Source: Caballeronia sp. NK8 (GTDB taxonomy: Bacteria; Pseudomonadota; Gammaproteobacteria; Burkholderiales; Burkholderiaceae). From it: a stretch of DNA of 64,000 bases. The stretch is taken from contig NZ_AP024324.1 of the NCBI RefSeq assembly GCF_018408855.1, positions 496,001 to 560,000 of the forward strand, read 5' to 3'. Positions within the stretch are counted from its first letter, which is position 1. The number at the start of each line of letters is the position of its first letter. Positions 44,667-63,359 of this stretch are shown piece after piece. Under the pieces are notes generated by a model that saw nothing but the letters and a program-made list of their open reading frames with translations, did not search any database and was not told the origin of the DNA. The position numbers were made by a program, and so were the translations under genes.

Positions 44667-44759
44667 ATCTCCTCCATTGATAAATTTCATTTTGTGCGGC
44701 GGGACGCGCGATGTTCTGCACACCCGCTCTATCCTTCTTGGATTCCGGACAACCGCCGA

Positions 44760-45806
44760 TCAGAATTGCGTGCGAATGCCGCCACCGATCGTCTCGCCGG
44801 TGGACTCGTGGCTCGCGCGGTCGGATAGCACCGCCGCGTACAGGTCGGTTCGCTTCGACAGCGGATACAGGTACGACAGCGCCCAGGTGTTGCGATACAC
44901 CGAGCTATTGCCGGAACTCTTCGAGTAGGCATCCGAGCCGAGAATCCGGCCGATACCTACCGGGATCGAAAAACCGAGCTGGCCGGTATCGATGCCCACA
45001 TCGCCCGTCGAGATGGCATCCCAGACGTGCTGATACTGTCCGTATAGCTTCACGAAGCCCACGTCGTACGACGCGCCCGCGTTGACCACCGATTGCGTCT
45101 TCAGTCCTGGCAGCACGGTGTCGAGATCGCCGGCATTCAGGCTGAACTTGATCTGCTGATACACGACGGACGTCGCGAAGCCGCCGTTGCTGTAGGAAAC
45201 CTGACCGGTCCACTTGTTCTGGCCGAGATGACCCGGATCGTTGCCGAACGAATACATCGCGCGACCGACAAAACCGCCGATCGCCGGTGTCGAGTAGTAC
45301 ACCGAGTTCCACCACTCGCCTGCGTTGCCGAACACGCCCTGCCCGTTCACGCCGACATAGCTGTGCAGCACCATCGGGGAGAACACGAAGGAGTTGAAGA
45401 ACGGATTGAAGGTGATCGTCGAAAACCACAGCAGCGGGGGAATCAGGCCCGCCGTCGCGGTGCCGTAGCGCCCGGTCGCGCCGACCCACGCATTGCGCGA
45501 GAACAGGCCGTCCTGCGGAAAGCCGGTGCGGCCCATCGCGCCGTTCTGAACGTTGAAATAGCCCTCGAGATCGAAGATGACTTTCGTGCCGCCGCCGATG
45601 TCCTCGGCGCCGCGCATCCCGAAGTACGATGCGGTCAGGCCGCCGTTGCCCGCCAGCACGTTCGATTGTCCGTTCAGCGGTTTCTTGTAGGCGACGAACG
45701 CGTCGATGAGCCCATAAAGCTGCACGCTCGACTGCGCATGGGCCGCTACGCTGAGCAGCGCGGCACTCAAAGCCATCGCCTGCATGCCGCTTTTTATTAT
45801 TTTCAC
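44760..45806 (-). CDS. General outer-membrane porin, Burkholderia type
   Basis: A 348-residue porin starting at a GTG (45806) with GGAG 5 nt upstream, then a signal peptide ending AAHAQ, mature start SSVQLYGLIDAF and a C-terminal Phe (GIRTQF). No ATG suits the signal peptide better. It is distinct from its neighbour at 43575 and probably arose by older duplication. It follows the NCS2 permease gene on the same strand. Confidence 0.87.
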   Translation of the reverse strand: MKIIKSGMQAMALSAALLSVAAHAQSSVQLYGLIDAFVAYKKPLNGQSNVLAGNGGLTASYFGMRGAEDIGGGTKVIFDLEGYFNVQNGAMGRTGFPQDGLFSRNAWVGATGRYGTATAGLIPPLLWFSTITFNPFFNSFVFSPMVLHSYVGVNGQGVFGNAGEWWNSVYYSTPAIGGFVGRAMYSFGNDPGHLGQNKWTGQVSYSNGGFATSVVYQQIKFSLNAGDLDTVLPGLKTQSVVNAGASYDVGFVKLYGQYQHVWDAISTGDVGIDTGQLGFSIPVGIGRILGSDAYSKSSGNSSVYRNTWALSYLYPLSKRTDLYAAVLSDRASHESTGETIGGGIRTQF

Positions 45807-48844: not shown

Positions 48845-49558
48845 TCAGTTGATGTCTGCGAGGACTTCGACGGCGAGCCGCTCCGCTTGCTGAACATGCC
48901 GCTTGCAGGCGGCCGCGGCCTGATCGGCATCATTTCGCATAACCGCGTCGACGATCGCTGAAATTTCGCTGTAGCTCTCGTCGAGCCGTCCTTCCTGCGA
49001 AAGCGTCGTGGCGCGCAGCATCATCACGCGCGTGTGCACGAGACGAAGCATTTCGGTCAGCACCGGGTTGCCGGCGCCTTCGAGAATCACATCGTAGAAC
49101 TTGGCTTTCTGCTTTAAAAACAACAAGATGGAATCATCTGCGCGCATGTCGCGGATCGCGGCCAGTTCCTTCAGCGCCTGCATCAGCGCGACACGCTGGT
49201 CGTTCGACGCCCGTTCGGTGAACTGATGCCCGGCCAGCGCCTCCAGCGCCGCGCGCACCTCGTACAGGCCCTTCGCCTCGTTTTTCGTGATGACCGCGAC
49301 GATCGGACCCTTGTGCGGAATCGTTTGCACTAGCCCTTCGGCGACGAGCTGACTGAGCGCTTCGCGAATCAGCGTGCGGCTCACGCCCAGCATCTCGCAC
49401 AGCTCGCGCTCGATGAGCCGGTCGCCCGGCTTGAAAGTCAGGTCGCTGATGCATGAGCGCAGCCCCTCGATCACCTGCTGCCGCAACGTCGCCGCCGGCC
49501 GCACTACTTGTCTGTTCGTGTTCATTCCTTCCTTGACCGACGTTTGCGTATCTGACAT
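48845..49558 (-). CDS. GntR-family regulator, FCD (FadR-like) subgroup
   Basis: A 237-residue repressor-type regulator: winged helix (about 25-95; GDRLIERELCEMLGVSRTLIREALSQL) and FCD ligand-binding domain (about 100-225; LYEVRAALEALAGHQF, with a His-containing metal-like pocket). Start at ATG 49558, with GAGAGGGG upstream; a long extension is discounted. It diverges from the catabolic operon beginning at 49682 and has a near-palindrome 25-42 nt upstream of its start that recurs before the MFS gene. The likely effector is a pathway substrate or intermediate. Confidence 0.88.
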   Translation of the reverse strand: MSDTQTSVKEGMNTNRQVVRPAATLRQQVIEGLRSCISDLTFKPGDRLIERELCEMLGVSRTLIREALSQLVAEGLVQTIPHKGPIVAVITKNEAKGLYEVRAALEALAGHQFTERASNDQRVALMQALKELAAIRDMRADDSILLFLKQKAKFYDVILEGAGNPVLTEMLRLVHTRVMMLRATTLSQEGRLDESYSEISAIVDAVMRNDADQAAAACKRHVQQAERLAVEVLADIN

Positions 49559-49582
49559 TCGAACCCCTCTCTCATCAAAGGT

Positions 49583-49600
49583 CGTAATACAATCATATTG
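49583..49600. promoter_or_regulatory. Candidate GntR/FCD operator 2
   Basis: CGTAATACAAT-N3-ATTG, identical to 48675-48692 outside the three spacer bases. It sits in the divergent region between the GntR gene and the catabolic operon. A related ATACAAT half-site occurs at 49637-49643, about 40 nt before the first catabolic gene. Confidence 0.68.
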
Positions 49601-49681
49601 ACACGGCTTTAGCGCGTGTTCATACTGTGTGTGATTATACAATCGTACAACCGTCCAAACCACTGCACTCAAGAGGTTTTC

Positions 49682-50077
49682 ATGCAAGACATCACGTCAT
49701 CTGAACGCAGGGCTATCGGGGCAACGATCCGCAAGGAAGTGCTCGGCACGGCGCACACGCAGCGCAACGCCGAGCCTCACCTGTTCGACGCCGTCTTTCT
49801 CGAGTTCACCGAGGACTTCTGCTGGGGCAACGTCTGGAACCGACCCGGCCTCACGCGTTCGACGCGCAGCATGCTGAACCTTGCGATGCTCGCCTCGCTC
49901 GGGCGCTGGCACGAGTTCGAAGTGCATACGCGCGGTGCGGTGAACAACGGCGTGACGGAAGAGGAAATCGCCGAAGTGCTGCTGCAGGCGGGCGTGTACG
50001 CGGGCATTCCGGTGGCGGCGGAAGCGCTGCGGCGCGCCAAGGCCGTGATTCTGGAACTCAAGGCCAAGGCCGCCTGA
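49682..50077 (+). CDS. Carboxymuconolactone decarboxylase (PcaC-like) protein
   Basis: A 131-residue PcaC-like protein of the CMD family. The conserved core reads LTRSTRSMLNLAMLASL and EFEVHTRGAVNNGVTEEEIAEVLLQAGVYAGIP; the HTRGAVNNG motif matches 4-carboxymuconolactone decarboxylase, not AhpD (no CxxC). It may decarboxylate a lactone intermediate. Start at ATG 49682, with AGAGG upstream. It is the first gene of the GntR-controlled operon. No complete protocatechuate pathway is present, so its real substrate is probably an analogue. Confidence 0.86.
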   Translation: MQDITSSERRAIGATIRKEVLGTAHTQRNAEPHLFDAVFLEFTEDFCWGNVWNRPGLTRSTRSMLNLAMLASLGRWHEFEVHTRGAVNNGVTEEEIAEVLLQAGVYAGIPVAAEALRRAKAVILELKAKAA

Positions 50078-50136
50078 GCCGACTCGCGCGTCCAATGTAT
50101 GACGCGCGTGACTTCCCCGCTTTCCCCGCAAACGTC

Positions 50137-50940
50137 ATGTCACTGTTAACACAGCCAAGTTACTGCGAAATTCCTGCCGGCCGTATCGCCTACTCGCGCT
50201 GCGGGACGGGTCGGCCGCTGGTGCTGCTTCATCCGATTGGCGTCGACCGAAGCTGGTGGGACGAATATGTCGACTCCTGGGCTTCGTCTTACGACGTGAT
50301 AGCAATCGACATGCGCGGTCATGGCGAATCGAGCACGCTCAAGTCAGGCATCACGCTCGCCGACCACGCCGCCGATGTCGCCGCGGTGCTGCACAAGGAG
50401 CGCGTCGCCGGCGCCGTGCTGATCGGCGTGTCGATGGGCGGAATGGTCGCCCAGCGCGTGGCGATCCAGTTTCCCGAACTCGTCGGCGCGATGATCCTCT
50501 GCGCGACCGCCGGCGGTTTCCCCGACGACGTGCGTCCGCGCATTCGCGCCCGCGGCGATACGAGCCGTCAGGGCGCGATGCCGGAAGTCATCGACGAAAC
50601 CATCGCGCGCTGGTTCGCGACGGATACGCCGCGCCTGGATCTCGTCGCGAAGTGCCGCGCGCGCCTCGCCGCCGATGACTGGTACAGCTGGAGCGCCAAC
50701 TGGGAGGCGATTTCCCGGCTCGACAACCTCGCTGAATTGCGCGCCGTGCCCCAGCCGGCGCTCGTCGTGGCGGGCGACGCCGACGCGAGCATTCCTCCCG
50801 CGGTATCGCAAAAAATCGCCGACGCGCTGCCGGCAGGCCGTTTCGTCACGATTCCCGGCGCGGCGCATTTCGGCGCGTTCGACATGCGCGAGACCATCGC
50901 ACCGGTGTTCAACGCGTTCCTGACGAGCCTCGCGCAGTAA
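50137..50940 (+). CDS. Alpha/beta-hydrolase, 3-oxoadipate enol-lactonase-like (PcaD-like)
   Basis: A 267-residue hydrolase with oxyanion region LLHPIGVDRSWW, nucleophile elbow GVSMGG (Ser), Asp in AGDADASIPP and His in GAAHFGAF. PcaD-type enzymes open enol-lactones; relatives open other lactones or hydrolyse ring-fission products. It follows the PcaC-like gene by about 60 nt. ATG 50137 fits family N-termini; ATG 50095 is possible, and neither has a strong ribosome site. Confidence 0.83.
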   Translation: MSLLTQPSYCEIPAGRIAYSRCGTGRPLVLLHPIGVDRSWWDEYVDSWASSYDVIAIDMRGHGESSTLKSGITLADHAADVAAVLHKERVAGAVLIGVSMGGMVAQRVAIQFPELVGAMILCATAGGFPDDVRPRIRARGDTSRQGAMPEVIDETIARWFATDTPRLDLVAKCRARLAADDWYSWSANWEAISRLDNLAELRAVPQPALVVAGDADASIPPAVSQKIADALPAGRFVTIPGAAHFGAFDMRETIAPVFNAFLTSLAQ

Positions 50941-51027
50941 GACCCGAGTCCGCGCGCGGCGCGGCTCAGAATCAACCAAATAAGTGGAGCGGACGCCCGC
51001 ATGCGTCGATCGCTCCGAGGAGGCAGT

Positions 51028-51744
51028 ATGGCAATCACCATCCGTTCGTCGTTCACCGTCGATGCGCAGCCCGCCGACGTCTGGAAGACCATGACCGACA
51101 TCGAGCGCTCCGCGCCGTGTTTTCCAGGCGCGGAACTGAAAGAGCAGCAGCCCGATGGCAGCTACAAGGGCGGCTTCACCGTCAAGCTCGGCCCGCTGAC
51201 GCTCAAGTTCGCTGGCAAATTCAAGATCGCCGATCAGAACGACGCCAACCGCACGGTCGTCGTCTCGGCGAGCGGCACCGATACCAAAGGCCGTGGCGGC
51301 GCCGATGCGCAAATCAACGCGGCCGTCGCCGAAGCCGGCGGCAAGACGAAAGTCGATGTCGTGTCGGAGGTGAATCTGTCGGGCACGGTCGCGCAGTATG
51401 GTCGAGGCGCGGGGATGATCGAAGCGCTCTCGCAGCAGTTGCTGAACCAGTTCGCGAAGAATCTGACCGCGCTCATCGAGGCGGACGCGGCTCACGATGC
51501 GCAAACGACGCACACGCTCGTCAGCGCCGACGTCCCGAACGACGCCGCGACCTCCGCTACGCCGCAAAACGCGCAGGCCGCGCGTGAGACCGCCGCGCCG
51601 GTGCCGCCCGCCGAACCGCGCCGCGCGCCGCCCGCCCCTGCGCCGGTCGCGCCGCTCGACGCGGGCGCGCTGATGCGCAAGGCGATGTGGCAGTCGATCC
51701 GAAACTTCTTCGCCCGGCTTTTCAGACCCGGGCAACAGCATTGA
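51028..51744 (+). CDS. CoxG-like SRPBCC protein
   Basis: A 238-residue protein with an N-terminal CoxG/SRPBCC domain (about 1-150; FTVDAQPADVWKTMTDIERSAPCFPGAEL) and an Ala/Pro-rich linker ending in a short amphipathic tail (RNFFARLFRPGQQH), typical of CoxG proteins that recruit molybdenum hydroxylases to the membrane. Start at ATG 51028, with GAGGAGG 5 nt upstream. It lies just before the three subunit genes of the hydroxylase. Confidence 0.87.
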   Translation: MAITIRSSFTVDAQPADVWKTMTDIERSAPCFPGAELKEQQPDGSYKGGFTVKLGPLTLKFAGKFKIADQNDANRTVVVSASGTDTKGRGGADAQINAAVAEAGGKTKVDVVSEVNLSGTVAQYGRGAGMIEALSQQLLNQFAKNLTALIEADAAHDAQTTHTLVSADVPNDAATSATPQNAQAARETAAPVPPAEPRRAPPAPAPVAPLDAGALMRKAMWQSIRNFFARLFRPGQQH

Positions 51745-51774
51745 CGAAGCGGCCGACGCACCCGTGGAGCACCC

Positions 51775-52662
51775 ATGAAACCCAGTGAATTCCAGTATCA
51801 CGCGCCGACCACCGTCGACGAGGCCGCGCATCTGCTCGGCACGCTCGAGGACGCGCGCGTGCTCGCCGGCGGCCAGTCATTGATGCCGATGATGAACTTC
51901 CGGTATCTGATGACGAGTCATCTGATCGACCTGAACGGCGTCGAGGCACTAACGCGCATCGAGGAACGCGATGGCCGCCTGCACATCGGCGCGATGGCGC
52001 GGCAGCGCGACATCGAACTGTCGCCGCTCGTCACGCAGCGCGCGCCGCTGATCCGCGAGGCGTATCAACTCGTCAGCCACAAGCAGATCCGCAATCGCGG
52101 CACGCTCGGCGGCAGCCTGTGCCAGCTCGATCCATCGTCGGAACAGCCGTGCTTCACCGCCGCGCTCGACGGCGTGCTGAGCATCGCGCGCTACGAAGAC
52201 GGCGCGGTCACGCACCGCGAACTGCCGATGTCCGACTGGGCGCTGATGTACATGACGCCCGCGCTCGAAGAAGGCGAACTGCTCGCCGGCATCTCGCTCG
52301 AGATCTGGCCCGAGGGCCACGGCTATGCATTCGAGGAGTTCGCGCGGCGTCATGGCGATTACGCCATCGTCGGCGTCGCGGCGCTGTGCACCGCCGACGC
52401 GCAAGGGCGGCTCGACCGAGTCGCGCTGACGATCTGCGGCGTGGCGCCCGGCCCGGTGCGCATGCACGACGTCGAAACCGCGCTGCACGGCCGTCCGATG
52501 GACCAAGACGCGCTGCGCATCGCGAGCGACGCCGCGCGCGCGCTCGACGTGATGACCGACGCGCACGTGAGCACCGACTACCGCCAGCATCTCGCCGGCG
52601 TCCTGAGCGAAAGAGCGCTGAAGCGGGCGTTCTCGCGCGTTGCAAGACAAAACGTACAGTGA
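51775..52662 (+). CDS. Molybdenum hydroxylase, FAD (medium) subunit
   Basis: A 295-residue FAD subunit of the xanthine-oxidase family (CoxM/CutM type): FAD-binding loops VLAGGQSLMPMMNFR and NRGTLGGSLCQLDPSSE, then the CO_deh_flav_C domain. It carries electrons from the 2Fe-2S subunit to a quinone or other acceptor. Start at ATG 51775. The gene order medium, small, large matches the Cox/Cut arrangement. Confidence 0.9.
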   Translation: MKPSEFQYHAPTTVDEAAHLLGTLEDARVLAGGQSLMPMMNFRYLMTSHLIDLNGVEALTRIEERDGRLHIGAMARQRDIELSPLVTQRAPLIREAYQLVSHKQIRNRGTLGGSLCQLDPSSEQPCFTAALDGVLSIARYEDGAVTHRELPMSDWALMYMTPALEEGELLAGISLEIWPEGHGYAFEEFARRHGDYAIVGVAALCTADAQGRLDRVALTICGVAPGPVRMHDVETALHGRPMDQDALRIASDAARALDVMTDAHVSTDYRQHLAGVLSERALKRAFSRVARQNVQ

Positions 52663-52676
52663 GCAAGGAGATGGAC

Positions 52677-53189
52677 ATGGAGACTCGTACCGTCAGAGTC
52701 GTCGTCAACGGCACCGCCTATGAGCGCGACGTCGAACCGCGCCGCATGCTCGGTGACTTCCTGCGTCACGACCTCGAACTCACCGGCACGCACTACGGTT
52801 GCGAGCACGGCGTATGCGGCGCCTGCACCGTGCTGATCGAAGGCCGCACCGCGCGCGCCTGCCTGACGCTCGCGGCGCAAGTAAACGGCCACTCGCTGAC
52901 CACCGTCGAAGGGCTCGCTCACGCGGACGGCACGCTCAACGAGCTGCAAAAAGCCTTCACCGAAACACACGCGCTGCAATGCGGTTTCTGCACGCCCGGC
53001 ATGCTGATGACGCTGACCGAACTGCTGAACGAAACCGATTCGCCGACCGAAGCCGAAATCCGCGAAGCGATCACGGGCAATCTGTGCCGCTGCACGGGCT
53101 ATCAGCCGATCGTGGCCGCGGCCCTGCTCGCCGCGCAGCGCATCCGCGATCAGCGTGCCGCCGCACCGGCGGCTTACGCGACGGAGTAA
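52677..53189 (+). CDS. Molybdenum hydroxylase, 2x[2Fe-2S] (small) subunit
   Basis: A 170-residue subunit with a plant-type cluster ([12 protein letters not shown] plus distal Cys in RACLTL) and a second helical-domain cluster (CGFCTPGM and CRCTGY). It relays electrons between the molybdenum and FAD subunits. ATG 52677 has AAGGAG 6 nt upstream; ATG 52671 directly abuts that site and is less likely. It follows the medium-subunit gene with a 14-nt gap. Confidence 0.92.
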
Positions 53190-53195
53190 CACACG

Positions 53196-55562
53196 ATGGA
53201 AATTTCCGATCTGAAGGGCGCGCCCACCGACCAGCGTTACATCGGCAAGCGCATCACGCGCACCGAAGACAAGAAGCTGCTGCAAGGCCAGGGCTCCTAC
53301 GTGGACGACCTGCATCTGCCGAACATGCTGCAGGCCGCCGTGCTGCGCAGCCCGCATGCGCACGCGAAAATCGTGTCGATCGACTGCACCGCTGCCCGCG
53401 AACTCAAAGGCGTGCATGCCGTCTACACGCACGCGGACCTGAGCGGCCGCGCACGCGGCCGCGCGCCGTCGATGCTGCCGAATCCGGCGATCCGCTTCGA
53501 GCGCACACAGGAACTGCTCGCTTCGACCGAAGTCACGTTCGCGGGCGAAGCGGTGGCGTTCGTCGTCGCGGACAATCGCTATATCGCCGAAGACGCGTGC
53601 GGTCTCATCGAAGTCGAATACGACACGCTGCCCGCCGTCGCCGACTGCCGCGACGGACTGCGCGCCGAATCGCCGCTCTGCCACACCGACGCGAAAGACA
53701 ACGTCGTCGCGCATATCGAAATGGGTTTCGGCGACATCGACGCCGCCTTCGAGAATGCGCCGCATGTCGTCGAGGAAACGTACTGGCAGAACCGCGGTTC
53801 CGCGCATCCGATGGAAACGCGCGGTTATCTCGCCGAGTATCACGCGACCAACGGCGAGCTGACCGTCTGGTCGTCGGGTCAGGCGCCGCACCACGAGAAG
53901 AAGAATCTCGTCGAGTTGCTCGAATGGGATGCCGAGAAGCTGCGCGTGCTGATGAACGACGTCGGCGGCGGCTTCGGCCCGAAGCTGCCGTTCTATCCGG
54001 AAGAGGCGCTCGTCTCGATCGCGGCGGTCGCGCTCAAGCGTCCCGTGAAATGGATCGAAGACCGGCGCGAGCATTTCCTCGCGGTCACGCAGGAGCGCGA
54101 CCAGTGGTGGACCGTACGCATGGCGCTGGAAAACGACGGCAAGATTCGCGGCGTGAAGCTGGAGATGGTGCACGACAACGGCGCGTTCCTGCCGTGGGGC
54201 ATCATCACGCCGTACATCTCGATCACGACGACGCCCGGCCCGTACGTGATCCCCGCGATGGGCGCGAAGCTCGACGTCGTCTACACCAACAAGTGCGCGA
54301 CCTCGCCGGTGCGCGGCGCGGGCCGCCCGCAAGCCGTGTTCGCAATGGAGCGGATTCTCGACAAGGCCGCGCGCGCGCTCGGCATGGACCGCGCGGAGCT
54401 GCGCTGGCGCAATCTGATCCAGCCGGAGCAGATGCCGTATGACGCGGGCTTCATCTATCGCGACGGCAGTCCGCTGCGCTACGACAGCGGCGACTATCCG
54501 GCCTGCCAGAAAGCGGCGCTCGAACGCGCCAACTACGCGAGCTTCGCCGCACGCAAGGCCGAGGCGCGCAGTCAGGGCCGCTTCATCGGCATCGGCATGG
54601 CGAGCTTCGTCGAAGGCACCGGCATGGGGCCGTTCGAGGGCGCGACGGTGCGCGTGCAGGCGAATGGCCGCATCGTCGTGATCACCGGAGCATCGCCCCA
54701 AGGTCAGGGCCACAAGACCACCTTCGCGCAGATCTGCGCCGAACAACTGAACGTGCCGCTCGAAACGATCGACGTCGTGACCGGCGATACCGGCGGCATC
54801 TCGATGGGCGTCGGCACCTTCGCGAGCCGCGTGACGGTGAATGCCGGCAACTCGGTCTATATCGCCGCGCAGGCCGTGGGCGAGAAGATGCTCACGCTCG
54901 CCGCGCATCTGTGGCAGTGCGAGCCCGAAGAACTCGTGCTCGTCGAGGGGCACGTGGCACGCCGCGCGGGCATCGAACAGCGCATGAGCTACGGCCAGCT
55001 CGCGAAGATCTCGCAAGGCATGCCGGGCTTCACGATGCCCAAGGGCCTCACCGCCGGCCTCGAAGAAACGAAGTACTTCTCGCCCGCGCAGTCGACGTAT
55101 TGCAACGGCACCGCTGTCGTGGAACTGGAAGTCGATCGCGAGACCGGCCACATCACGATCCTCAACTACGTGATGGCGCACGACTCCGGCAAGCTCATCA
55201 ATCCGATGATCGTCGATGGCCAGGTGATCGGCTCGGTCGCGCACGGCATCGGCAACGCGACGCTCGAATGGATGCAGTACGACGAGAACGCGCAGCCCAC
55301 CACGACGAACTTCGGCGAATACCTGCTGCCGATGGCGACCGACGTACCGAACGTCGACATCGTGCATCTCGAAACGCCGTCGCCGCTGAACCCGCTCGGC
55401 GTCAAGGGCGCGGGCGAAGGCGGAACGATTCCGGCCGCGGCGGCGATCGTCGCGGCGATCGAGGACGCGCTCTCGGAATACGGCGTCGAATTCACCGAAG
55501 CGCCGCTCGTTCCGCAACGCGTATTTCAGAAGCTCAAGGAGGCTGGCGCCTACGCTCGCTGA
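53196..55562 (+). CDS. Molybdenum hydroxylase, Mo-cofactor (large) subunit
   Basis: A 788-residue large subunit. The molybdopterin cytosine dinucleotide signatures are present (GGGFGPKLPF; GQGHKTTFAQ; GNSVYIAAQAVG), and the base Glu741 lies in GAGEGG. The active-site loop reads SPVRGAGRP (about 370-378), the RGAGR type, and lacks the AYxCSFR loop of true CO dehydrogenase. It is therefore a ring- or aldehyde-hydroxylating enzyme that takes oxygen from water. Substrate unknown; clustering with UbiD genes suggests an aromatic or heteroaromatic carboxylate. Start at ATG 53196. Confidence 0.9.
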   Translation: MEISDLKGAPTDQRYIGKRITRTEDKKLLQGQGSYVDDLHLPNMLQAAVLRSPHAHAKIVSIDCTAARELKGVHAVYTHADLSGRARGRAPSMLPNPAIRFERTQELLASTEVTFAGEAVAFVVADNRYIAEDACGLIEVEYDTLPAVADCRDGLRAESPLCHTDAKDNVVAHIEMGFGDIDAAFENAPHVVEETYWQNRGSAHPMETRGYLAEYHATNGELTVWSSGQAPHHEKKNLVELLEWDAEKLRVLMNDVGGGFGPKLPFYPEEALVSIAAVALKRPVKWIEDRREHFLAVTQERDQWWTVRMALENDGKIRGVKLEMVHDNGAFLPWGIITPYISITTTPGPYVIPAMGAKLDVVYTNKCATSPVRGAGRPQAVFAMERILDKAARALGMDRAELRWRNLIQPEQMPYDAGFIYRDGSPLRYDSGDYPACQKAALERANYASFAARKAEARSQGRFIGIGMASFVEGTGMGPFEGATVRVQANGRIVVITGASPQGQGHKTTFAQICAEQLNVPLETIDVVTGDTGGISMGVGTFASRVTVNAGNSVYIAAQAVGEKMLTLAAHLWQCEPEELVLVEGHVARRAGIEQRMSYGQLAKISQGMPGFTMPKGLTAGLEETKYFSPAQSTYCNGTAVVELEVDRETGHITILNYVMAHDSGKLINPMIVDGQVIGSVAHGIGNATLEWMQYDENAQPTTTNFGEYLLPMATDVPNVDIVHLETPSPLNPLGVKGAGEGGTIPAAAAIVAAIEDALSEYGVEFTEAPLVPQRVFQKLKEAGAYAR

Positions 55563-55625
55563 CTGGTGCGCGCCGGCTCATCAGAAATGTGGATTTCCCG
55601 TTTTCATTGACTTTACTTGCCCGCC

Positions 55626-56354
55626 ATGACGACTGAATTCAACGCCGCGCTCCACGATTCGGAATACCGGATCACCCTCTCCCAGCCAGACCTCGGCAAC
55701 ACGCTGACGCTCGAAGCAATGCGCGCGCTCGCCGCCGAGATCCGCAAGGCCGGCCGCGATCCGGAGGTGAAAATCATCCGCATCCGCGCGTCCGGCCCCG
55801 CGTTCTGCCGTGGCCGCGCGGTCAGCGCGCCGCCCGCCACGCCGCCGACGTCCGCGCAGTTCCGCCGCAACGTCGCCGATCCGATTCTCGACGTCTATCG
55901 CGCGATGCACGAAAGCGAAGTGCCGCTCATCGCCGAAGTGCAAGGCGATGCCGAAGGTTTCGGCTGCGCGCTCGTCACCGCGTGCGACATGGCCATCGCG
56001 GCGGACAATGCGCGCTTCAGCCTGCCCGAACTGCAGAAAAACCTGCCGCCGACGCTCGTGCTTTCCGTGCTGCGCCACAAGGTGCCGCCGAAGGCATCCG
56101 CGCATCTGGTCTACCTGACCGAGACGATCGATGCCGCGAACGCGCGCGAATGGGGCATCGTCGCCGAAGTCGTGCCGGGCGCGAGCCTCGCCGCACGCGC
56201 CGACGCCATGGTCGCGTCGATCTGCACGCGCGAGCGCATCGCCATCGCCACGCTGAAGACGTATTTCCGCGAGATCACGATTCCCGACTTCTCGCTTGCA
56301 AGCGAAGTGGCCGGCGCGTCGCTCGCCAACGCAATGACGTCGATGCGCCGCTGA
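55626..56354 (+). CDS. Enoyl-CoA hydratase/isomerase (crotonase) family protein
   Basis: A 242-residue crotonase-fold protein. The oxyanion-hole regions are ASGPAFCRGR and VQGDAEGFGCALVTACDMAIA, and the usual PE motif appears in FSLPELQ. Conserved Gly positions vary from classical hydratases. No CoA ligase is encoded in the operon, so it may act on a CoA ester made elsewhere, or on a non-CoA ring-opened or dienone intermediate. Start at ATG 55626; an upstream TTG is rejected. Confidence 0.84.
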   Translation: MTTEFNAALHDSEYRITLSQPDLGNTLTLEAMRALAAEIRKAGRDPEVKIIRIRASGPAFCRGRAVSAPPATPPTSAQFRRNVADPILDVYRAMHESEVPLIAEVQGDAEGFGCALVTACDMAIAADNARFSLPELQKNLPPTLVLSVLRHKVPPKASAHLVYLTETIDAANAREWGIVAEVVPGASLAARADAMVASICTRERIAIATLKTYFREITIPDFSLASEVAGASLANAMTSMRR

Positions 56355-56408
56355 TACATCGACGCCACACGCACTACCCTGCCCGCCGGGCAGCATTCAA
56401 AGCAAAGG

Positions 56409-56427
56409 GCGCCGCGCAACGCGGCGC
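56409..56427 (+). other. Intercistronic GC hairpin
   Basis: GCGCCGCG and CGCGGCGC arms around a CAA loop lie 19 nt before the first UbiD gene. With no T-run it is more likely a processing or mRNA-stability element than a terminator. Confidence 0.45.
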
Positions 56428-56445
56428 TTCAAGGGACTTCCAGTC

Positions 56446-58113
56446 ATGGCTGATCAAGACACCTCTTCCACGTCCGCCGCGAACACGGGTTACGCGGACC
56501 TGCACGAACACATCGCGCGGCTCGACGCGGCTGGCCTGCTGTATCGAATCGACGAGCCGGTCAATAAAGACACCGAAATGCATCCGCTCGTGCGATGGCA
56601 GTTTCGCGGCGGCATTCCCGAAGCCGAACGCCGTGCGTTTCTCTTCACGAACATCGTCGACAGCAAGGGGCGCAAGTACGACATTCCGGTCATCGTCGGC
56701 GGCATCGCGGCGAATCCGGAGATTTACCGCATCGGCATGAACGTGCCCTCGCTCGACGATATCGGCGACGCCTGGAATCGCGCGATCGACAATCCGATTC
56801 CACCGGTCGTGGTTGAAAGCGGCCCGGTGCACGACATCGTGATCGAAGGAAAGGACCTCGAAGGTTCGGGCAACGGCCTCGAATCGCTGCCGCTGCCGAT
56901 CTCGACGCCGGGCTTCGATGCCGCGCCCTACATGACGATGACCGGCGTGATTTCGCGCGATCCGGAAACCGGCGTGCAGAACATGGGCACCTATCGCGGG
57001 CATCTGAAATCGGCGACGCGTCTCGGCATGATGATGCTCGTGAATCTGCGCGCGGGCGGTCTCGACCACTGGCGCAAGTACGCGGCCAAGGGTGAGAAGA
57101 TGCCGGTCGCCATCGTGCTCGGCGCGCCGCCCGTCGTCGCTTTCCAGGGGCCGCAGAAGCTGCGTCCGAACGTCGATGAACTGAGCGTCGCCGGTGGTCT
57201 TGCCGGCACGCCGGTGCGTGTCGTGAAAGGCCGCACCGTCGATCTGCTGGTGCCCGCCGAAGCGGAAGTGGTCGTCGAAGGTTATGTCGATCCGCAGTAT
57301 CTCGAACCCGAAGGCCCGTTCGGCGAGAGTCACGGCTATGTCGCGCTGGAGGACTTCAACCTCGTCATCGAGGTCACGGCGATCACGCGGCGCAAGGACG
57401 CGGTGCTGACGTCGATCATCTCGCAGGTCACGCCGTCCGAATCGAGCGTCATCAAGCGGCTCGCCTACGAACCGATGTTCCTGCGCCATCTGCGCGACCA
57501 TCTCGGCATTCGCGGCATCAAGAAGGTATCGCTGCACGAGCCGCTTACGAACCTGCGCCGCTTCGTGTTCCTGCAATTCGAGCGCGGCGCGAAGCGCACG
57601 GAAGTCTGGCGCGCGCTGTACGGCACGATGTCGCTGCAGGCGGCGATCGGCAAATTCGTGATCGCCATCGATGACGACATCGATCCGGACAACGCCGACG
57701 CGGTGTTCTGGGCGATGGGCTATCGCTGCAATCCGGTCGAGGACGTGAAGATGATTCCGTACCGCGAGCCGGGCCACGGTCCGCGCTCGGACCACGCGAC
57801 CGGCCTCGATTCCGCGATGCTGATCGACGCGACCATGAAGGCGCCGATGCCGCCGCTCGCGTTGCCGAAGAAGGAATACATGGAGAACGCGAAGCTGCTG
57901 TGGGAGCGCCTCGGCTTGCCGGCGCTCAAGCCCGAGTCGCCGTGGTACGGCTATTCGCTCGGTGACTGGACGGAGGAATGGGACCGCAACGCCGAGCAGG
58001 CGACGCGCGGTGAATGGATGCAGCGCGACGCGTCCTACCAGGCGCGGCGTCGCAGCGGCGTCGAACCGAACTCGCCGGCACGTGCCTATGAGGATGATCG
58101 TGGCGACCAATAA
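56446..58113 (+). CDS. UbiD-family prenylated-FMN decarboxylase (first copy)
   Basis: A 555-residue UbiD-family protein. The active-site residues fit the family: Arg184 in MGTYRGHLK, then Glu289 and Glu294 in EGPFGES (equivalent to the Arg and Glu-x4-Glu set of Fdc/UbiD enzymes). It catalyses reversible (de)carboxylation of an aromatic, heteroaromatic or alpha,beta-unsaturated acid with prenylated FMN. It overlaps the UbiX gene by 26 nt. A closely similar UbiD lies 2 kb downstream. It is not the housekeeping ubiquinone enzyme, judging from its setting and length. Confidence 0.9.
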   Translation: MADQDTSSTSAANTGYADLHEHIARLDAAGLLYRIDEPVNKDTEMHPLVRWQFRGGIPEAERRAFLFTNIVDSKGRKYDIPVIVGGIAANPEIYRIGMNVPSLDDIGDAWNRAIDNPIPPVVVESGPVHDIVIEGKDLEGSGNGLESLPLPISTPGFDAAPYMTMTGVISRDPETGVQNMGTYRGHLKSATRLGMMMLVNLRAGGLDHWRKYAAKGEKMPVAIVLGAPPVVAFQGPQKLRPNVDELSVAGGLAGTPVRVVKGRTVDLLVPAEAEVVVEGYVDPQYLEPEGPFGESHGYVALEDFNLVIEVTAITRRKDAVLTSIISQVTPSESSVIKRLAYEPMFLRHLRDHLGIRGIKKVSLHEPLTNLRRFVFLQFERGAKRTEVWRALYGTMSLQAAIGKFVIAIDDDIDPDNADAVFWAMGYRCNPVEDVKMIPYREPGHGPRSDHATGLDSAMLIDATMKAPMPPLALPKKEYMENAKLLWERLGLPALKPESPWYGYSLGDWTEEWDRNAEQATRGEWMQRDASYQARRRSGVEPNSPARAYEDDRGDQ

Positions 58114-58690
58114 CGGCTCTCCTGAACGGATCATCGTCGGCATCACGGGCGCGTCTGGCGTGATCTACGGGATTCGCGCGCTCGAACTGCTCGCCGAGGC
58201 GGGCGTCGAGACGCATCTCGTGATCAGCAAGGCCGCCGAGCTGACGATGACCTACGAAACCGACTTCCGCGCCGCCGATCTGCGCGCGCGCGCGTCGCGA
58301 TGGTATTCGCCCGGCGACATCGGCGCCGCCATTTCGTCGGGCTCGTTCAAGACCAAAGGCATGCTGATCGTGCCGTGCTCGGTGCGCTCGATGAGCGAGA
58401 TCGCCACCGGCATCACGAGTTCGCTGGTCAGCCGCGCGGCCGACGTCGTCCTGAAAGAGCGCAGGCGTCTCGTGCTCGGCGTGCGCGAGACGCCGCTGCA
58501 TGGCGGTCATCTGCGCACGCTCGTGCAGCTCTCCGACATGGGCGCGGTGATCGCGCCGATCGTGCCGGCTTTCTATTCGAAGCCGAAGACGATCGACGAC
58601 ATCGTGAATCACACGATCGGCCGCATGCTCGATCTGTTCGATATCGAAACCGGCGTGGTCAAGCGCTGGAAAGAGCAGCAGGACGAGTAG
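58088..58690 (+). CDS. ubiX: UbiX-like flavin prenyltransferase
   Basis: A 200-residue UbiX/Pad1-type prenyltransferase with GITGASGVIYG, PCSVRSMSEIATG and ETPLHGGH. It adds dimethylallyl phosphate to FMNH2, making the cofactor that UbiD enzymes require. ATG 58088 or 58094 starts inside the end of the UbiD gene (26-nt overlap), showing tight coupling. It gives the two UbiD enzymes their own cofactor source. Confidence 0.9.
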   Translation: MRMIVATNNGSPERIIVGITGASGVIYGIRALELLAEAGVETHLVISKAAELTMTYETDFRAADLRARASRWYSPGDIGAAISSGSFKTKGMLIVPCSVRSMSEIATGITSSLVSRAADVVLKERRRLVLGVRETPLHGGHLRTLVQLSDMGAVIAPIVPAFYSKPKTIDDIVNHTIGRMLDLFDIETGVVKRWKEQQDE

Positions 58691-58728
58691 CGATGCGCCG
58701 CTGACGCGCCTTCATCCCCATCACAGGC

Positions 58729-58757
58729 CCGCCGCGTGCGTCGGCGGCCGCCCTTTT
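58729..58757 (+). other. Weak hairpin with short T-run
   Basis: A CCGCCG/CGGCGG stem followed by TTTT (58754-58757), just before the aldehyde dehydrogenase start. It is a possible attenuator or partial terminator within the operon. Confidence 0.3.
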
Positions 58758-58760
58758 GCG

Positions 58761-60239
58761 ATGACCATGACTGAATCCAATCCGCTTTCCCGGCTCGCCG
58801 ATCCGAGCCTGTTGCGCACGCTCGCCTATATCGACGGCGCGTGGTGCGGCGCCGACGACGCCCGCACCTTCGCCGTCGACGATCCCGCCACCGGCGCGAC
58901 GATCGCCGACGTCCCGCTGATGACCGGCGTCGAGACGCGCCGTGCGATCGAGGCGGGCGAACGCGCGCAGCGCGGCTGGCGCGCGCTCACTGGCGCGCAG
59001 CGCGCGGCGGTCCTGAAGCGCTGGCACGCGCTGATGATCGCCAATACCGACGACCTCGCGATCATCATGTCGGCCGAGCAAGGCAAGCCGCTCGCGGAAG
59101 CGAAGGGCGAAATCGGCTATGCGGCATCGTTCATCGAATGGTTCGCCGAACAGGCGAAACGGGTCGATGGCGACGTGCTCGCCTCGCCTTCCAGCGACAA
59201 GCGCATGCTCGTGACGAAGGAGCCGATCGGCGTGTGCGCCGCGATCACGCCGTGGAATTTTCCGGCCGCGATGATCACCCGCAAGGTTGCGCCCGCGCTC
59301 GCCGCAGGCTGCGCCATGATCGTGAAGCCCGCCGAAGCCACGCCGCTCTCGGCGCTCGCGCTGGCCGAACTCGCGCATCGCGCGGGCGTTCCGGCGGGCG
59401 TGTTCAGCGTGGTCGTCGGCGATCCGCGCGAGATCGGCGCGGAGATGACGGCCAACCCGATCGTGCGCAAGCTCTCGTTCACCGGCTCGACGCCGGTGGG
59501 CCGGCTGCTGATGAGCCAGTGCGCGCCGACCGTCAAGAAGCTCTCGCTCGAACTGGGCGGCAACGCGCCGTTCATCGTATTCGACGACGCCGATCTCGAC
59601 GCGGCCGTCGAAGGCGCGCTCGCTTCGAAGTATCGGAACGCCGGACAAACCTGCGTCTGCACGAACCGCTTCTATGTGCAGGACAGCGTGTACGACGCAT
59701 TCGCCGACAAGTTCGCGGCGGCGGTCGGTCGCATCAAGGTCCGCAACGGCTTCGAGGGCGGCGTCACGCAAGGACCGCTCATCAACGAGGCGGCGATCGG
59801 GAAAGTCGAAGCGCATATCGCCGACGCGGTGGCGCACGGCGCGCGCGTGATCACCGGCGGCAAGCGTCATGCTGCGGGCACGCTCTTCTTCGAACCGACC
59901 GTGGTGGACGGCGTCACCGCTTCGATGCGCTTCGCGACCGAGGAAACCTTCGGCCCGGTCGCCCCGCTCTTTCGCTTTCACGACGAGCGCGAGGCGATCG
60001 AAGCGGCGAACGCCACGGAGTTCGGGCTGGCCGCGTACTTCTACAGCCGCGACATCGGCCGGATCTGGCGCGTGTCCGAGGCGCTCGAATACGGGATGGT
60101 CGGGGTCAACACCGGTCTGATCTCGAACGAAGTCGCGCCGTTCGGCGGCGTCAAGCAGTCCGGCCTCGGTCGCGAAGGCTCGAAGTACGGCATCGAGGAA
60201 TACCTCGAAATCAAATATCTGTGCATGGGCGGCGTCTGA
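58761..60239 (+). CDS. NAD(P)-dependent succinate-semialdehyde-type dehydrogenase
   Basis: A 492-residue aldehyde dehydrogenase with nucleotide-binding TPWNFPAAMITRK and GSTPVGR, catalytic Glu264 in LELGGNAPF and Cys298 in NAGQTCVC. Sequence and length fit GabD-like semialdehyde dehydrogenases, which form succinate or a similar diacid. It would complete the pathway by oxidising a ring-fission semialdehyde. ATG 58761 or 58767 may be used. Confidence 0.88.
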   Translation: MTMTESNPLSRLADPSLLRTLAYIDGAWCGADDARTFAVDDPATGATIADVPLMTGVETRRAIEAGERAQRGWRALTGAQRAAVLKRWHALMIANTDDLAIIMSAEQGKPLAEAKGEIGYAASFIEWFAEQAKRVDGDVLASPSSDKRMLVTKEPIGVCAAITPWNFPAAMITRKVAPALAAGCAMIVKPAEATPLSALALAELAHRAGVPAGVFSVVVGDPREIGAEMTANPIVRKLSFTGSTPVGRLLMSQCAPTVKKLSLELGGNAPFIVFDDADLDAAVEGALASKYRNAGQTCVCTNRFYVQDSVYDAFADKFAAAVGRIKVRNGFEGGVTQGPLINEAAIGKVEAHIADAVAHGARVITGGKRHAAGTLFFEPTVVDGVTASMRFATEETFGPVAPLFRFHDEREAIEAANATEFGLAAYFYSRDIGRIWRVSEALEYGMVGVNTGLISNEVAPFGGVKQSGLGREGSKYGIEEYLEIKYLCMGGV

Positions 60240-60307
60240 AGCCTGTCGTGCAATCAAACAATGACCGTGATGAACCCGTCCGCCGGGTCTCACATGAAGG
60301 AGAAAGC

Positions 60308-61969
60308 ATGTCGACGTCGCCTCACGATCTTTCGCCTGCGGCAACCGCCGAAGGCGCCCCGCGCGACCTGCAGGAACATATCGCGCGGCTGGAAGCCAAG
60401 GGGCTTTTGACCCGCATCGAGCGGCCGATCAACAAGGACACGGAACTGCATCCGCTCGCGCGCTGGCAGTTTCAGGGGGGACTGGACGAAGACCAGCGCC
60501 GCGCTTTCCTGTTCACCAACGTGGTCGACGGCGAAGGCCAGACCTATGACATCCCGGTGCTGATCGGCGGTCTCGCCGCCTCGCCGGAGATCTATGCGAC
60601 CGGGCTGGGCCTGCCGGTCGATCAGATCGGCAAGGTCTGGATGGAGGCGATCGCCGAGCCCATCGCGCCGGTCATGGCGGATGACGCGCCCTGTCAGGAA
60701 GTCGTGATCACGGGCGAAGAACTGAAACGCCGCGGGCTGTCGCGGCTGCCGGTGCCGGTGTCCACGCCCGGGTTCGACGCCGCGCCCTATCTCACCGCGA
60801 CGCTGTGCGTGACCAAGGACCCCGCGAGCGGCGTCCAGAACATGGGCACGTACCGCGCCGCGTTGAAGTCGGAAGACCGGCTGGGCGTACGCATGGCGAG
60901 CCGGCTGTCGGGTGCGGGCGGCTATCTGCACTGGGAGAAATATCGCGCAATGGGTCAGCAAATGCCCTGCGCGATCGTGCTGGGCTGCGCGCCGGCCGTG
61001 TTGTTCACCGGGCCGCAAAAGCTGCAGATCGATCAGGACGAGATGGCGGTAGCCGGTGGCCTGATGCGCTCGCCGGTCGAGGTGGTGCGCTGCAGGACCA
61101 TCGACCTCGTCGTCCCGGCCGATGCCGAAATCGTGATCGAAGGCCTGATCGACACCGATGCTCTGGAGCCCGAAGGTCCTTTCGGCGAGAGCCACGGTCA
61201 TATCGCGCTCGAAGACTACAACATGTCGATGCACGTCACCGCGATCACGATGAAGAAGAAGCCCGTGTTCGTCTCGATCATCAGTCAGGTGACGCCGAGC
61301 GAAAGCTCGGTGCTGAAGAAGGTGGCCTACGAGCCGCTGTTCCTCGAGCATCTGCAAAAAGTGATGGGCGTGCGCGGCGTCAAACGGGTGGTGATGCATG
61401 AGCCGCTCACCAACCTGCGCAAGGTGATCTTCGTGCAGTTTGCGCGCGGCACGCCGCAGGCGGAGGTCTGGCGCGGCATGCAGGGCGCCGCGACCCTTCA
61501 GGCACAGTGCGGCAAGCTGGTCATCGCAGTCTCCGAGGACATCGACCCGGAAAACGCCGATGCCGTCTTCTGGTCGCTGGCGTATCGCTCCGACTTCACG
61601 CACGACGTGCATGTGACGCCTTATCGCACGAGCGGCCATGGTCCGAAGTCCGGCCGTGCGCCGCTCGAAAGCACGCTTCTGATCGACGCCACGCTGAAGC
61701 ACGACATGCCGCCGCTGGCTCTGCCGGCGGAGCGATACATGAGCGCCGCACGCAAGATCTGGGAAGAGCTGAACCTTCCTCATCTGACGCCGCGCCCGCC
61801 CTGGCACGGCTACCACCTGGGCGACTGGGACAAGCGCTGGGATGAGTATGCGGATGCGGCGACCTCCGGCGGCTGGCGCGAGACCGGCGAGCGTACGTGG
61901 GCCAACCGGCGCGGCGGCGTGAAACCGGAAACACCGGTTCGCGAAGCCTCGGGCGGCCACGGCGAATAA
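60308..61969 (+). CDS. UbiD-family prenylated-FMN decarboxylase (second copy)
   Basis: A 553-residue UbiD paralogue of the protein at 56446, similar along its whole length. Active-site residues are kept: Arg183 in MGTYRAALK, Glu289 and Glu294 in EGPFGES. Start at ATG 60308, with AAGGAG 5 nt upstream; an open frame running back into the aldehyde dehydrogenase gene is rejected. Two UbiD genes with one UbiX gene suggest two successive decarboxylations or two related substrates. Codon use here and in the next gene leans slightly more to GCC/CTG than in the first copy, by eye only. Confidence 0.88.
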   Translation: MSTSPHDLSPAATAEGAPRDLQEHIARLEAKGLLTRIERPINKDTELHPLARWQFQGGLDEDQRRAFLFTNVVDGEGQTYDIPVLIGGLAASPEIYATGLGLPVDQIGKVWMEAIAEPIAPVMADDAPCQEVVITGEELKRRGLSRLPVPVSTPGFDAAPYLTATLCVTKDPASGVQNMGTYRAALKSEDRLGVRMASRLSGAGGYLHWEKYRAMGQQMPCAIVLGCAPAVLFTGPQKLQIDQDEMAVAGGLMRSPVEVVRCRTIDLVVPADAEIVIEGLIDTDALEPEGPFGESHGHIALEDYNMSMHVTAITMKKKPVFVSIISQVTPSESSVLKKVAYEPLFLEHLQKVMGVRGVKRVVMHEPLTNLRKVIFVQFARGTPQAEVWRGMQGAATLQAQCGKLVIAVSEDIDPENADAVFWSLAYRSDFTHDVHVTPYRTSGHGPKSGRAPLESTLLIDATLKHDMPPLALPAERYMSAARKIWEELNLPHLTPRPPWHGYHLGDWDKRWDEYADAATSGGWRETGERTWANRRGGVKPETPVREASGGHGE

Positions 61970-62000
61970 GCCCTTAGAGCTGGGACATCCGGAGACATCC

Positions 62001-63359
62001 ATGACTCAAAAGATTACTGTCGACATCGCCCAGGTCGTCGAGACGCAGGAGCGGAGCTGGTTCACCGTGACCCTCTTCGTTCTGTGCGCCCTCGTCATGC
62101 TGGCGGACGGCTTCGACAATCAGGCCCTGAACTACGCCGCGCCCGGCATCATCAAGGAGTGGGGCATCAACCGTGCCCTGATGACGCCGGTGTTCAACGT
62201 CAGCATCGTCGGCTGGATGGCGGGGTCGGTCGTCTTCGCGATGCTGGCGGACCGCATCGGCCGGCGACGCGCGATCCTGCTGGCGACCGTGGTGTTCGGC
62301 GGCTTTACCTTCGCCGTGCCCTTCGCGCACGATCTGGTCACACTGTCGATCATGCGTTTCTGCGCCGCGCTCGGCATCGGCGGCGGCATGCCGATGGCGG
62401 TCTCGCTGATCACGGACTATGCCCGCTCGGCCAATCGGGGTCTGGTCATCACCCTCCTCTATCTCGGCTATACGGCCGGCTCGTCCGGCGGCGGCCTGCT
62501 TGCGGCGGAGATTATTCCCGCCTATGGCTGGCGCTCGGTCTTCTATCTGGGTGGCGCTGGCGCGGTGGTGGTGGGCATCATTCTTCTGATCGGACTGCCT
62601 GAATCGATTCGCTATCTGGCCCTGCGCAATCCCGGCAGCGAGCGCATCCTGGCTTATGCCCGCAAGCTCAAGCCCAGCGCGCGGTTTGCCGATGACACGC
62701 GTTTCACCATTCAGGAACAGGTACGCACGGGCGTGCCGGTGAGGCACCTCTTCACCGAAGGCCGCTCGGCGATGACCGCCTTCCTGTGGCTGGCGCTCGG
62801 CTTTTCGTTCGTCACGCACTTCTTTCTGTCGCAGTGGATGACGACACTGCTCACCGACGAAATCGGCTTTGCCAATGCGGCCCGCAGTCAGGCTCTGTTC
62901 CAGCTCGGCGCCGGCTTCAGTTGCTTCTTCGGCTGGATGATCGACAAGAAGGGCATCTCGGTGATGACACTGACGATGATTCTCGGCGCCATTCCGGTGG
63001 CGGCGCTTGGCGTGGCCGTCGGTACGGGCGCCGGTCCCACCATGGCGATGGCGCTCGCCTCGGGTCTGCTGGTGCTGGGCGGCAATATCGGTCTCAATGC
63101 CATTTCGAGCATGATCTATCCGACCTTCATTCGCTCGACCGCGACCGGCGCTTCGTTCGCGGTGGCGCGCATCGGCGCGATCGTCGGGCCGCTGCTTGCC
63201 GGTGTGCTGATCGCTGTCGGAACGCCCATCGGAACGATCTTCTTCCTCGGTTCGTTGCCGTTGCTGGCGGCTGGGGTTGCCTGCTTCATGCTCAGTAGAG
63301 CGATCACGCCCGAAGTGGCGCGGGAGATGTCCTCGCGGTCGGCGCTGTCGCGGCATTAG
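62001..63359 (+). CDS. MFS aromatic acid:H+ symporter (AAHS type)
   Basis: A 452-residue 12-helix MFS transporter with AAHS features: DGFDNQALNYAAP in helix 1, FAMLADRIGRRRAILLATV, IGGGMPMAVSLITDY and PTFIRSTATGASFAVARIGAI. It probably imports the aromatic or heteroaromatic acid used by the operon. Start at ATG 62001, 31 nt after the second UbiD stop. It ends 21 nt before a long inverted repeat. Confidence 0.9.
   Translation: MTQKITVDIAQVVETQERSWFTVTLFVLCALVMLADGFDNQALNYAAPGIIKEWGINRALMTPVFNVSIVGWMAGSVVFAMLADRIGRRRAILLATVVFGGFTFAVPFAHDLVTLSIMRFCAALGIGGGMPMAVSLITDYARSANRGLVITLLYLGYTAGSSGGGLLAAEIIPAYGWRSVFYLGGAGAVVVGIILLIGLPESIRYLALRNPGSERILAYARKLKPSARFADDTRFTIQEQVRTGVPVRHLFTEGRSAMTAFLWLALGFSFVTHFFLSQWMTTLLTDEIGFANAARSQALFQLGAGFSCFFGWMIDKKGISVMTLTMILGAIPVAALGVAVGTGAGPTMAMALASGLLVLGGNIGLNAISSMIYPTFIRSTATGASFAVARIGAIVGPLLAGVLIAVGTPIGTIFFLGSLPLLAAGVACFMLSRAITPEVAREMSSRSALSRH

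Follow-up and report, generated by a model that had tools for sequence, protein, structure and literature searches.

The 64,000-nucleotide stretch of Caballeronia sp. NK8 analysed here (hereafter the window; contig NZ_AP024324.1, positions 496,001 to 560,000) contains, from 49682 to 63359, twelve genes that form an uninterrupted row of open reading frames (ORFs) on the plus strand, with intergenic gaps of -26 to 91 nt. They encode a PcaC-like protein of the carboxymuconolactone decarboxylase (CMD) family, a PcaD-like hydrolase, CoxG, the three subunits of a molybdenum (Mo) hydroxylase, a crotonase-fold protein, UbiD1, UbiX, an aldehyde dehydrogenase (ALDH) of the succinate-semialdehyde type, UbiD2 and an MFS transporter (Table 1). 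An earlier reading of this DNA, made without database searches (hereafter the sequence-only reading), had named these genes in this order, and the ORF calls and profile searches confirmed it. Its statement that a CoA ligase is missing holds as well, as the profile searches found neither an AMP-binding nor a CoA-transferase protein among the twelve. The host genome comprises 9.2 Mb in seven contigs; the nearest genome record by UbiD2 is that of Caballeronia pedi (98%; records of the host's own genome were perhaps excluded from the database).

The operon was compared in 13 carrier genomes, of which eleven have the complete operon and the other two are Paraburkholderia solisilvae (G012) and Burkholderia sp. 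L27 (G013); three further loci, cut by contig ends (L012, L016, L040; L and G numbers denote compared loci and genomes), were left out of this count. The genes for the CMD protein, the hydrolase, CoxG, the three Mo-hydroxylase subunits, the crotonase, UbiD1, UbiX and the ALDH are present in all 13, and so is a divergently transcribed half consisting of a GntR regulator, adjacent in every case, an MFS transporter and an NCS2 permease. Since the gene order is kept in 13 of 13 genomes, the arrangement is not due to chance, and we regard it as a real, conserved catabolic unit. The unit is larger than the twelve genes, as the GntR (48845), divergent MFS (47282) and NCS2 (45880) genes are part of it. 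UbiD2 and the last MFS gene are an add-on, and the core holds one UbiD: the pair follows the ALDH gene in 11 genomes and is absent from the core in the other two. The UbiD-UbiX-ALDH-UbiD block, for which the sequence-only reading had proposed a synteny search, is thus kept throughout as far as UbiD1-UbiX-ALDH, but its last member follows in only 11 of 13 genomes. Of the two porin-like genes at the far side of the divergent half, the nearer one (44760) has a homologue in 10 of the 13 genomes, and the second, outermost one (43575) in all 11 stretches long enough (L049 and L062 end too soon). UbiD1 orthologues have a patchy distribution and occur at E <= 1e-200 in 6 of 299 Burkholderiaceae genomes, the host included. 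Of 399 Burkholderiales genomes, 20 hold relatives of the Mo-hydroxylase large subunit at E <= 1e-210; the next-best relative has 61% identity.

Table 1. Features of the unit and its surroundings in the window. Profile scores are in bits and are compared with curated cut-offs (Pfam, TIGRFAM, NCBIfam); start codons of several operon genes were refined after the first ORF calling.
Feature	Position	Strand	Basis
Rieske ferredoxin and AndAc/AndAd-like dioxygenase alpha and beta subunits, facultative neighbour	41164..43535	+	family matches
Second porin-like gene (by eye)	43575..44723	-	ORF; outer end of divergent half
Porin-like gene (by eye)	44760..45806	-	ORF
NCS2 nucleobase-type permease, xanthine-permease-like	45880..47289	-	NF037981 65 > cut-off 40; TIGR03173 201 < cut-off 414
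Divergent MFS, nearest aromatic-acid:H+ symporters	47282..48580	-	TIGR00895 179 < cut-off 419
GntR/FCD regulator	48845..49687	-	PF00392 and PF07729; maximal ORF; 49558 and 49525 are possible starts of a shorter one
Operator-like copy ATACAATC, upstream one	49587..49594	+	sequence conservation
Sigma-70-like promoter TTGACA-17-CATACT	49598..49626	+	conservation of TTGACA-17-NATACT
Operator-like site ATACAATCGTACAA	49637..49650	+	50 bp from first ATACAATC copy
PcaC-like CMD protein, no CxxC	49682..50077	+	PF02627; TIGR02425 113 < cut-off 156; alignment
PcaD-like alpha/beta hydrolase, GVSMGG	50095..50940	+	TIGR02427 160 < cut-off 256; alternative start 50137
CoxG, Mo-hydroxylase assembly-type protein	51028..51744	+	PF06240; refined start
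Mo-hydroxylase FAD subunit	51775..52662	+	PF00941, PF03450
Mo-hydroxylase 2Fe-2S subunit	52671..53189	+	PF01799, PF00111; refined start
Mo-hydroxylase large subunit (MoL)	53196..55562	+	PF02738, PF20256; VRGAGR and GAGEGG motifs, no AYxCSFR
Crotonase-fold protein, one of two catalytic-type Glu	55626..56354	+	PF00378 (ECH_1); alignment
UbiD1, predicted prFMN-decarboxylase family	56446..58113	+	PF01977 over cut-off; R-E-E triad; tree; UbiD fold
UbiX, flavin prenyltransferase	58088..58690	+	TIGR00421 235 > cut-off 109; 26-nt overlap with UbiD1
Succinate-semialdehyde-type dehydrogenase (ALDH)	58761..60239	+	TIGR01780 721 > cut-off 646
UbiD2, second UbiD	60308..61969	+	PF01977 over cut-off; alignment; tree
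Last MFS, nearest aromatic-acid:H+ symporters	62001..63359	+	TIGR00895 290 < cut-off 419

In all 14 sequences compared, the gap between the GntR and CMD genes carries TTGACA and NATACT boxes separated by 17 nt, and in each of them the promoter is flanked by two copies of ATACAATC, spaced by 50 bp in 11 and by 51 bp in three (L059-L061); in the window the copies start at 49587 and 49637. On its own, the promoter scan found hardly more than chance would give (3 against 1.9 expected), and the candidate promoter is supported by its conservation across sequences, which comes partly from kinship. Exact ATACAATCNTACAA occurs only once in the whole host genome, at the 49637 site, and its 16 exact occurrences in 14 genomes all lie beside GntR genes of carrier loci or the window's own. 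With up to one mismatch, 31 sites were found in these genomes versus four for a reversed-pattern control. Of the 15 one-mismatch rows, ten, each from a different genome, have the form ATGCAATCATACAA, another overlaps with a member of this group, and four lie elsewhere; two of the latter (G000:C6 and G011:C46) fall, by eye, at the start of another GntR-like ORF. The ATGCAATCATACAA form stands directly upstream of UbiD2 in 8 of the 11 operon genomes; in L007 and L008, whose UbiD2 is not linked to the core, it precedes NCS2-UbiD2. No such site precedes UbiD2 in the window, L006, L014 and L023; by eye, the window keeps a two-mismatch remnant. UbiD2 thus shares an operator-like sequence with the core even where the two are unlinked (2 of 13 genomes). 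Further afield, Sphingomonas oligophenolica (L038) has an exact site inside a palindrome (by eye) next to a GntR gene 39% identical to that of the window, and one-mismatch sites (L026, L027) or a two-mismatch site (L025) stand directly upstream of a Mo large subunit. No oxygenase or CoA ligase was seen elsewhere behind the same site in the 14 genomes at up to one mismatch, a result that covers all but two (G010:C74 and G012:C36) of the four leftover sites. As judged from sequence conservation, a single divergent promoter region with two operator-like copies serves the importers on one side and the enzymes on the other, and the unit is very probably GntR-regulated. In L007 (about 17600-17717), a ATACAATC pair 50 bp apart and a remnant resembling the start of the CMD gene (by eye) lie beside a second GntR copy, which looks like a scar of core-operon relocation.

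Both UbiD proteins exceed the PF01977 cut-off and stay under that of TIGR00148 (218 and 215 versus 245 bits). The catalytic triad is almost invariant in the alignment (R in 76 and E in 76 of 76 rows, the third position E in 74 and D in 2; some genomes are duplicated), and 26 aligned members of the clade share an invariant PSESS motif. Structure comparison revealed a full UbiD fold for UbiD1, and the overlapping gene encodes the UbiX partner expected of decarboxylases dependent on prenylated flavin mononucleotide (prFMN). From their family and the Arg-Glu-Glu/Asp triad, UbiD1 and UbiD2 are predicted to be such decarboxylases. The triad, and for UbiD1 the fold, are shared with PA0254/HudA and with HmfF of P. 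thermopropionicum, both of which use prFMN to decarboxylate five-membered heteroaromatic acids. By sequence, HmfF is the closest solved relative of the two UbiDs; however, it falls outside their clade. In the column of its furan-specificity His, Ser stands in all 68 clade rows of the 69 compared, and the remaining row is a UbiD of the host genome at 28%. This position is equated with Asn318 of PA0254 in PMC7976604. The fold itself does not choose a substrate, since E. coli UbiD, vanillate decarboxylase, HmfF and HudA score within about 1.5 Z units for UbiD1. The two UbiDs of the sequence-only reading, together with their own UbiX, are indeed present, but they do not make an in-operon pair: they belong to different supported clades of the tree, by which an in-operon duplication was rejected, and UbiD2 was recruited separately, yet with the same operator-like sequence.

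The Mo-hydroxylase has its Mo, FAD and 2Fe-2S subunits and the GAGE motif, which in the xanthine-oxidase family contains the conserved Glu, and is assigned to this family. The three best solved relatives of MoL are quinoline 2-oxidoreductase (1t3q, the best), a CoxL and 6-hydroxypseudooxynicotine dehydrogenase. With those quinoline 2-oxidoreductase and CoxL-like enzymes that lack AYxCSFR, it shares the three-subunit build and the RGAGR and GAGE motifs, while the sequences are distant. AYxCSFR is the active-site loop motif of form I aerobic CO dehydrogenase; the window protein has VRGAGR in its place and the CO dehydrogenase models stay under their cut-offs, so this identity was rejected. The crotonase has kept the second catalytic-type Glu and lost the first (Ala), whereas HmfE keeps the first; its homologues in L041, L064, L065 and L067 likewise retain only the second. 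The two lactone-type enzymes of the sequence-only reading do belong to the families of PcaC and PcaD of the beta-ketoadipate pathway, with common residue patterns around WGxxWxRPGL and NNGVT, but a true PcaC/PcaD identity was rejected, both proteins being below the curated cut-offs and a pair above them existing elsewhere in the genome. The ALDH passes the curated score for succinate-semialdehyde dehydrogenase (SSADH) and is under that of the GabD equivalog (783 versus 828), and its two best solved relatives are the SSADHs 4v6h and 3jz4.

The sequence-only reading had also linked the operon to the HmfABC/HmfFG pathway of furoate and furandicarboxylate degradation. We used as a yardstick the hmf cluster of Caballeronia sp. 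Lep1P3 (L084), whose Hmf names were assigned here by gene order and family membership, with the gene table of PMC12064950 as guide. A Mo-hydroxylase with a CoxG-type domain, a crotonase, UbiD, UbiX and MFS are common to both systems. In contrast to Hmf, the window operon has no CoA synthetase and adds the PcaC/PcaD-like proteins, an SSADH, a second UbiD and the GntR divergon. Identities to L084 are 29% for UbiD1 and UbiD2 (HmfF), 33% for MoL (HmfA), 36% for the medium subunit MoM (HmfB) and 26% for the crotonase (HmfE), with higher values for the small subunit MoS (55%, HmfC) and UbiX (50%, HmfG). CoxG, which matches the C-terminal stretch of HmfA at 25%, is a separate gene, not fused as in HmfA, and the HmfD homologue of the host lies at C6:245623, on another contig than the window operon. 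This contig has the hmfABCDE homologues and that of the MFS gene together in one place, 71-84% identical to L084. Membership in the Hmf system was rejected on these grounds: distant paralogues, Ser for His, no HmfD, HmfF outside the clade and a separate hmfABCDE in the genome. Given the latter and the low identities, the window operon is neither the Hmf pathway nor the genome's only set for 2-furoate. The host stretches L089 (C6:232000-251900) and L046 (C5) contain hmfABCDE and MFS homologues but no match to HmfF or HmfG, and an HmfF-like UbiD (46%) is located on another contig than the hmfABCDE stretch.

The comparison extended to 39 other loci, chosen for a UbiD of 50% identity or more across a match exceeding 350 residues; they are of unequal length, some truncated and some kin. 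A Mo large subunit occurs at 23 of them, a 2Fe-2S subunit at 15, an FAD subunit and a PcaD-like hydrolase at 13 each, a GntR relative at 10, UbiX at 9, a thiamine pyrophosphate (TPP) enzyme at 8, CoxG at 7, amidohydrolase-2 at 5, NCS2 and crotonase at 4 each, an AndAc-like oxygenase at 2 and an ALDH of at least 45% at 1. After removal of L063-L066, chosen with knowledge of a nearby Mo gene, the Mo large subunit is present at 19 of 35, versus none of the 8 loci of a small control set around CMD paralogues. In L007, L008/L050 and L038 (Paraburkholderia/Burkholderia, Sphingomonas), the TPP enzyme adjoins a cytochrome c, and NCS2 and UbiD2 are close by; the TPP enzyme of L007 has a Tat signal match just under the cut-off. 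In L031, a Rhodospirillaceae metagenome-assembled genome (TMED23), two oppositely oriented UbiDs each adjoin a Mo large-subunit match. In L069, from another Burkholderiales family, an ALDH 70% identical to that of the window adjoins a UbiD 58% identical to UbiD1, with no Mo-hydroxylase match. The host itself has another UbiD-UbiX pair (L047, C6:519500-537500). It is accompanied by a PbuX-type permease that exceeds its cut-off, by an amidohydrolase resembling 8-oxoguanine deaminase, by a protein resembling arylmalonate decarboxylase and, by eye, by two amidohydrolase-like genes and Mo-hydroxylase subunits.

We suppose, with a probability of about one half, that the unit is a GntR-controlled, CoA-free peripheral catabolic regulon that converts a small heteroaromatic mono- or dicarboxylate to succinate semialdehyde and further to succinate. 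The enzyme steps (prFMN decarboxylation, hydroxylation, ring opening and semialdehyde oxidation) are proposed from what is known of the families. The acid would enter through the porin and the NCS2/MFS carriers; UbiX would make prFMN for both UbiDs, which may decarboxylate the ring at separate steps or act on different substrates; and the CoxG-associated Mo-hydroxylase would put a water-derived hydroxyl group beside the ring heteroatom. The hydroxylated ring would be a lactone or lactam tautomer, which the PcaC-like protein, the single-Glu crotonase and the PcaD-like hydrolase could decarboxylate, shift and hydrolytically open with neither CoA nor O2, and the SSADH-type enzyme would oxidize the resulting aldehyde acid to succinate. 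The C4-semialdehyde end proposed by the sequence-only reading thus retains a likely exit enzyme, but the substrate is not assignable from sequence. The weakest step is the nature of the ring. A five-membered one (furan or pyrrole type) may fit the gene set best, because the core has no ring-cleaving oxygenase and the dehydrogenase is of C4 type; we put it forward tentatively. More doubtful still is a specific CoA-free route, in which UbiD would turn a dicarboxylate into the monoacid, the Mo-hydroxylase would yield a gamma-carboxy-butenolide or lactam analogue, and PcaC-like decarboxylation and PcaD-like opening of the enol-lactone would give succinate semialdehyde for the SSADH; if true, it would be a furan/pyrrole counterpart of the beta-ketoadipate lower pathway.

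Several observations weigh against this proposal. The identity of the CMD protein to true PcaC (40-41%) lies within the range that six aligned paralogues from other clusters show (34-44%); being no closer to PcaC than to these, the protein does not imply lactone decarboxylation, and it was found at none of the 39 other UbiD-clade loci. SSADH-type enzymes may also accept C5 semialdehydes. A related Mo-crotonase module is accompanied by a CoA transferase in Variovorax (L041, by annotation) and in L067 (by eye), so a CoA step could be supplied from elsewhere. The host already has hmfABCDE for 2-furoate, and the NCS2 permease suggests a nucleobase-like six-membered substrate. As for the regulation, L017, L028 and L044 have no site even at two mismatches, and the operator-carrying genomes are closely related, so that conservation partly reflects descent.

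A six-membered N-heteroaromatic acid (pyridine-, pyrimidine-, pteridine- or quinoxaline-like), acted on by UbiD and the Mo-hydroxylase in turn with the ALDH taking a C4 or C5 semialdehyde, is the alternative that survives best, as a minority possibility. The NCS2 permease, present in 13 of 13 core loci and at four of the 39 other UbiD-clade loci, speaks for it, as do quinoline 2-oxidoreductase and 6-hydroxypseudooxynicotine dehydrogenase among the solved Mo relatives, although the Mo-protein family does not fix the substrate. The TPP enzymes and AndAc-like oxygenases of the wider clade (8 and 2 of 39 loci) recall the lumichrome (riboflavin) cluster LumA-X, where decarboxylation of the heterocycle is likewise followed by a Mo-hydroxylase, with a Rieske dioxygenase; however, that decarboxylase is TPP-dependent, and UbiD goes unmentioned in the main text (PMC12746152). 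Neither the TPP enzyme nor the oxygenase belongs to the core. Moreover, six-membered rings usually need a ring-cleaving oxygenase or a ring reductase, both of which the core lacks.

A benzenoid hydroxy- or amino-dicarboxylate, decarboxylated by UbiD2 and passed to the neighbouring AndAc-like Rieske oxygenase while the Mo-enzyme oxidizes an aldehyde, is unlikely. The two MFS genes nearest to aromatic-acid symporters and the near-tied fold scores of UbiD1 are consistent with it, and the oxygenase alpha subunit adjoins UbiD2 in L008 and the operon in the window; but among the 11 stretches long enough to tell it adjoins the locus in three and is missing beside eight, the unit has no catechol-cleaving gene, and the best solved Mo relative is a quinoline hydroxylase. 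Finally, a variant of the Hmf furan-dicarboxylate/2-furoate pathway (HmfABCDEFG), for which the shared part list (HmfD and HmfH excepted) and the solved relative of the UbiDs could be quoted, is very improbable in view of the low identities to HmfF, HmfA and HmfE, the His-to-Ser exchange across a clade that excludes HmfF, the missing HmfD and the separate hmfABCDE.

Returning to the proposed CoA-free heteroaromatic regulon, what the unit presents is ordinary enzyme families in a new combination, and its description by the sequence-only reading as an uncharacterised operon is supported, as no characterised operon with the same gene set was found in the literature searched, long listings being covered in part. 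The unit offers a self-contained orphan pathway whose regulator, operator-like site and gene set are defined, and it points to a PSESS clade of UbiDs in Beta- and Alphaproteobacteria whose loci often include a Mo-hydroxylase. The substrate, if found, could add a second, CoA-independent way of joining prFMN decarboxylation with Mo-hydroxylation. Possible uses are the valorisation of furans and N-heteroaromatics and the naming of genes at present annotated as 'UbiD family decarboxylase' or as 'xanthine dehydrogenase family protein'.

Genes downstream of the operon gave no telling clue to the substrate. In the window a LysR gene occupies the place directly after the operon, where L012, L013, L014, L015 and L019 have an XdhC-like gene, which in L049 and L062 stands beside the core (by eye); the only copy scored, that of L013, is under the family cut-offs. 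Elsewhere in the window, at 9446-21309, Pfam matches indicate an Fe-type alcohol dehydrogenase and an intradiol dioxygenase. Judged by eye, they are accompanied by a sugar-type ABC transporter, two oxidoreductases of Gfo/Idh-like type and a TIM-barrel gene resembling epimerases, and the set possibly forms a cyclitol or sugar route via a hydroxylated benzene.

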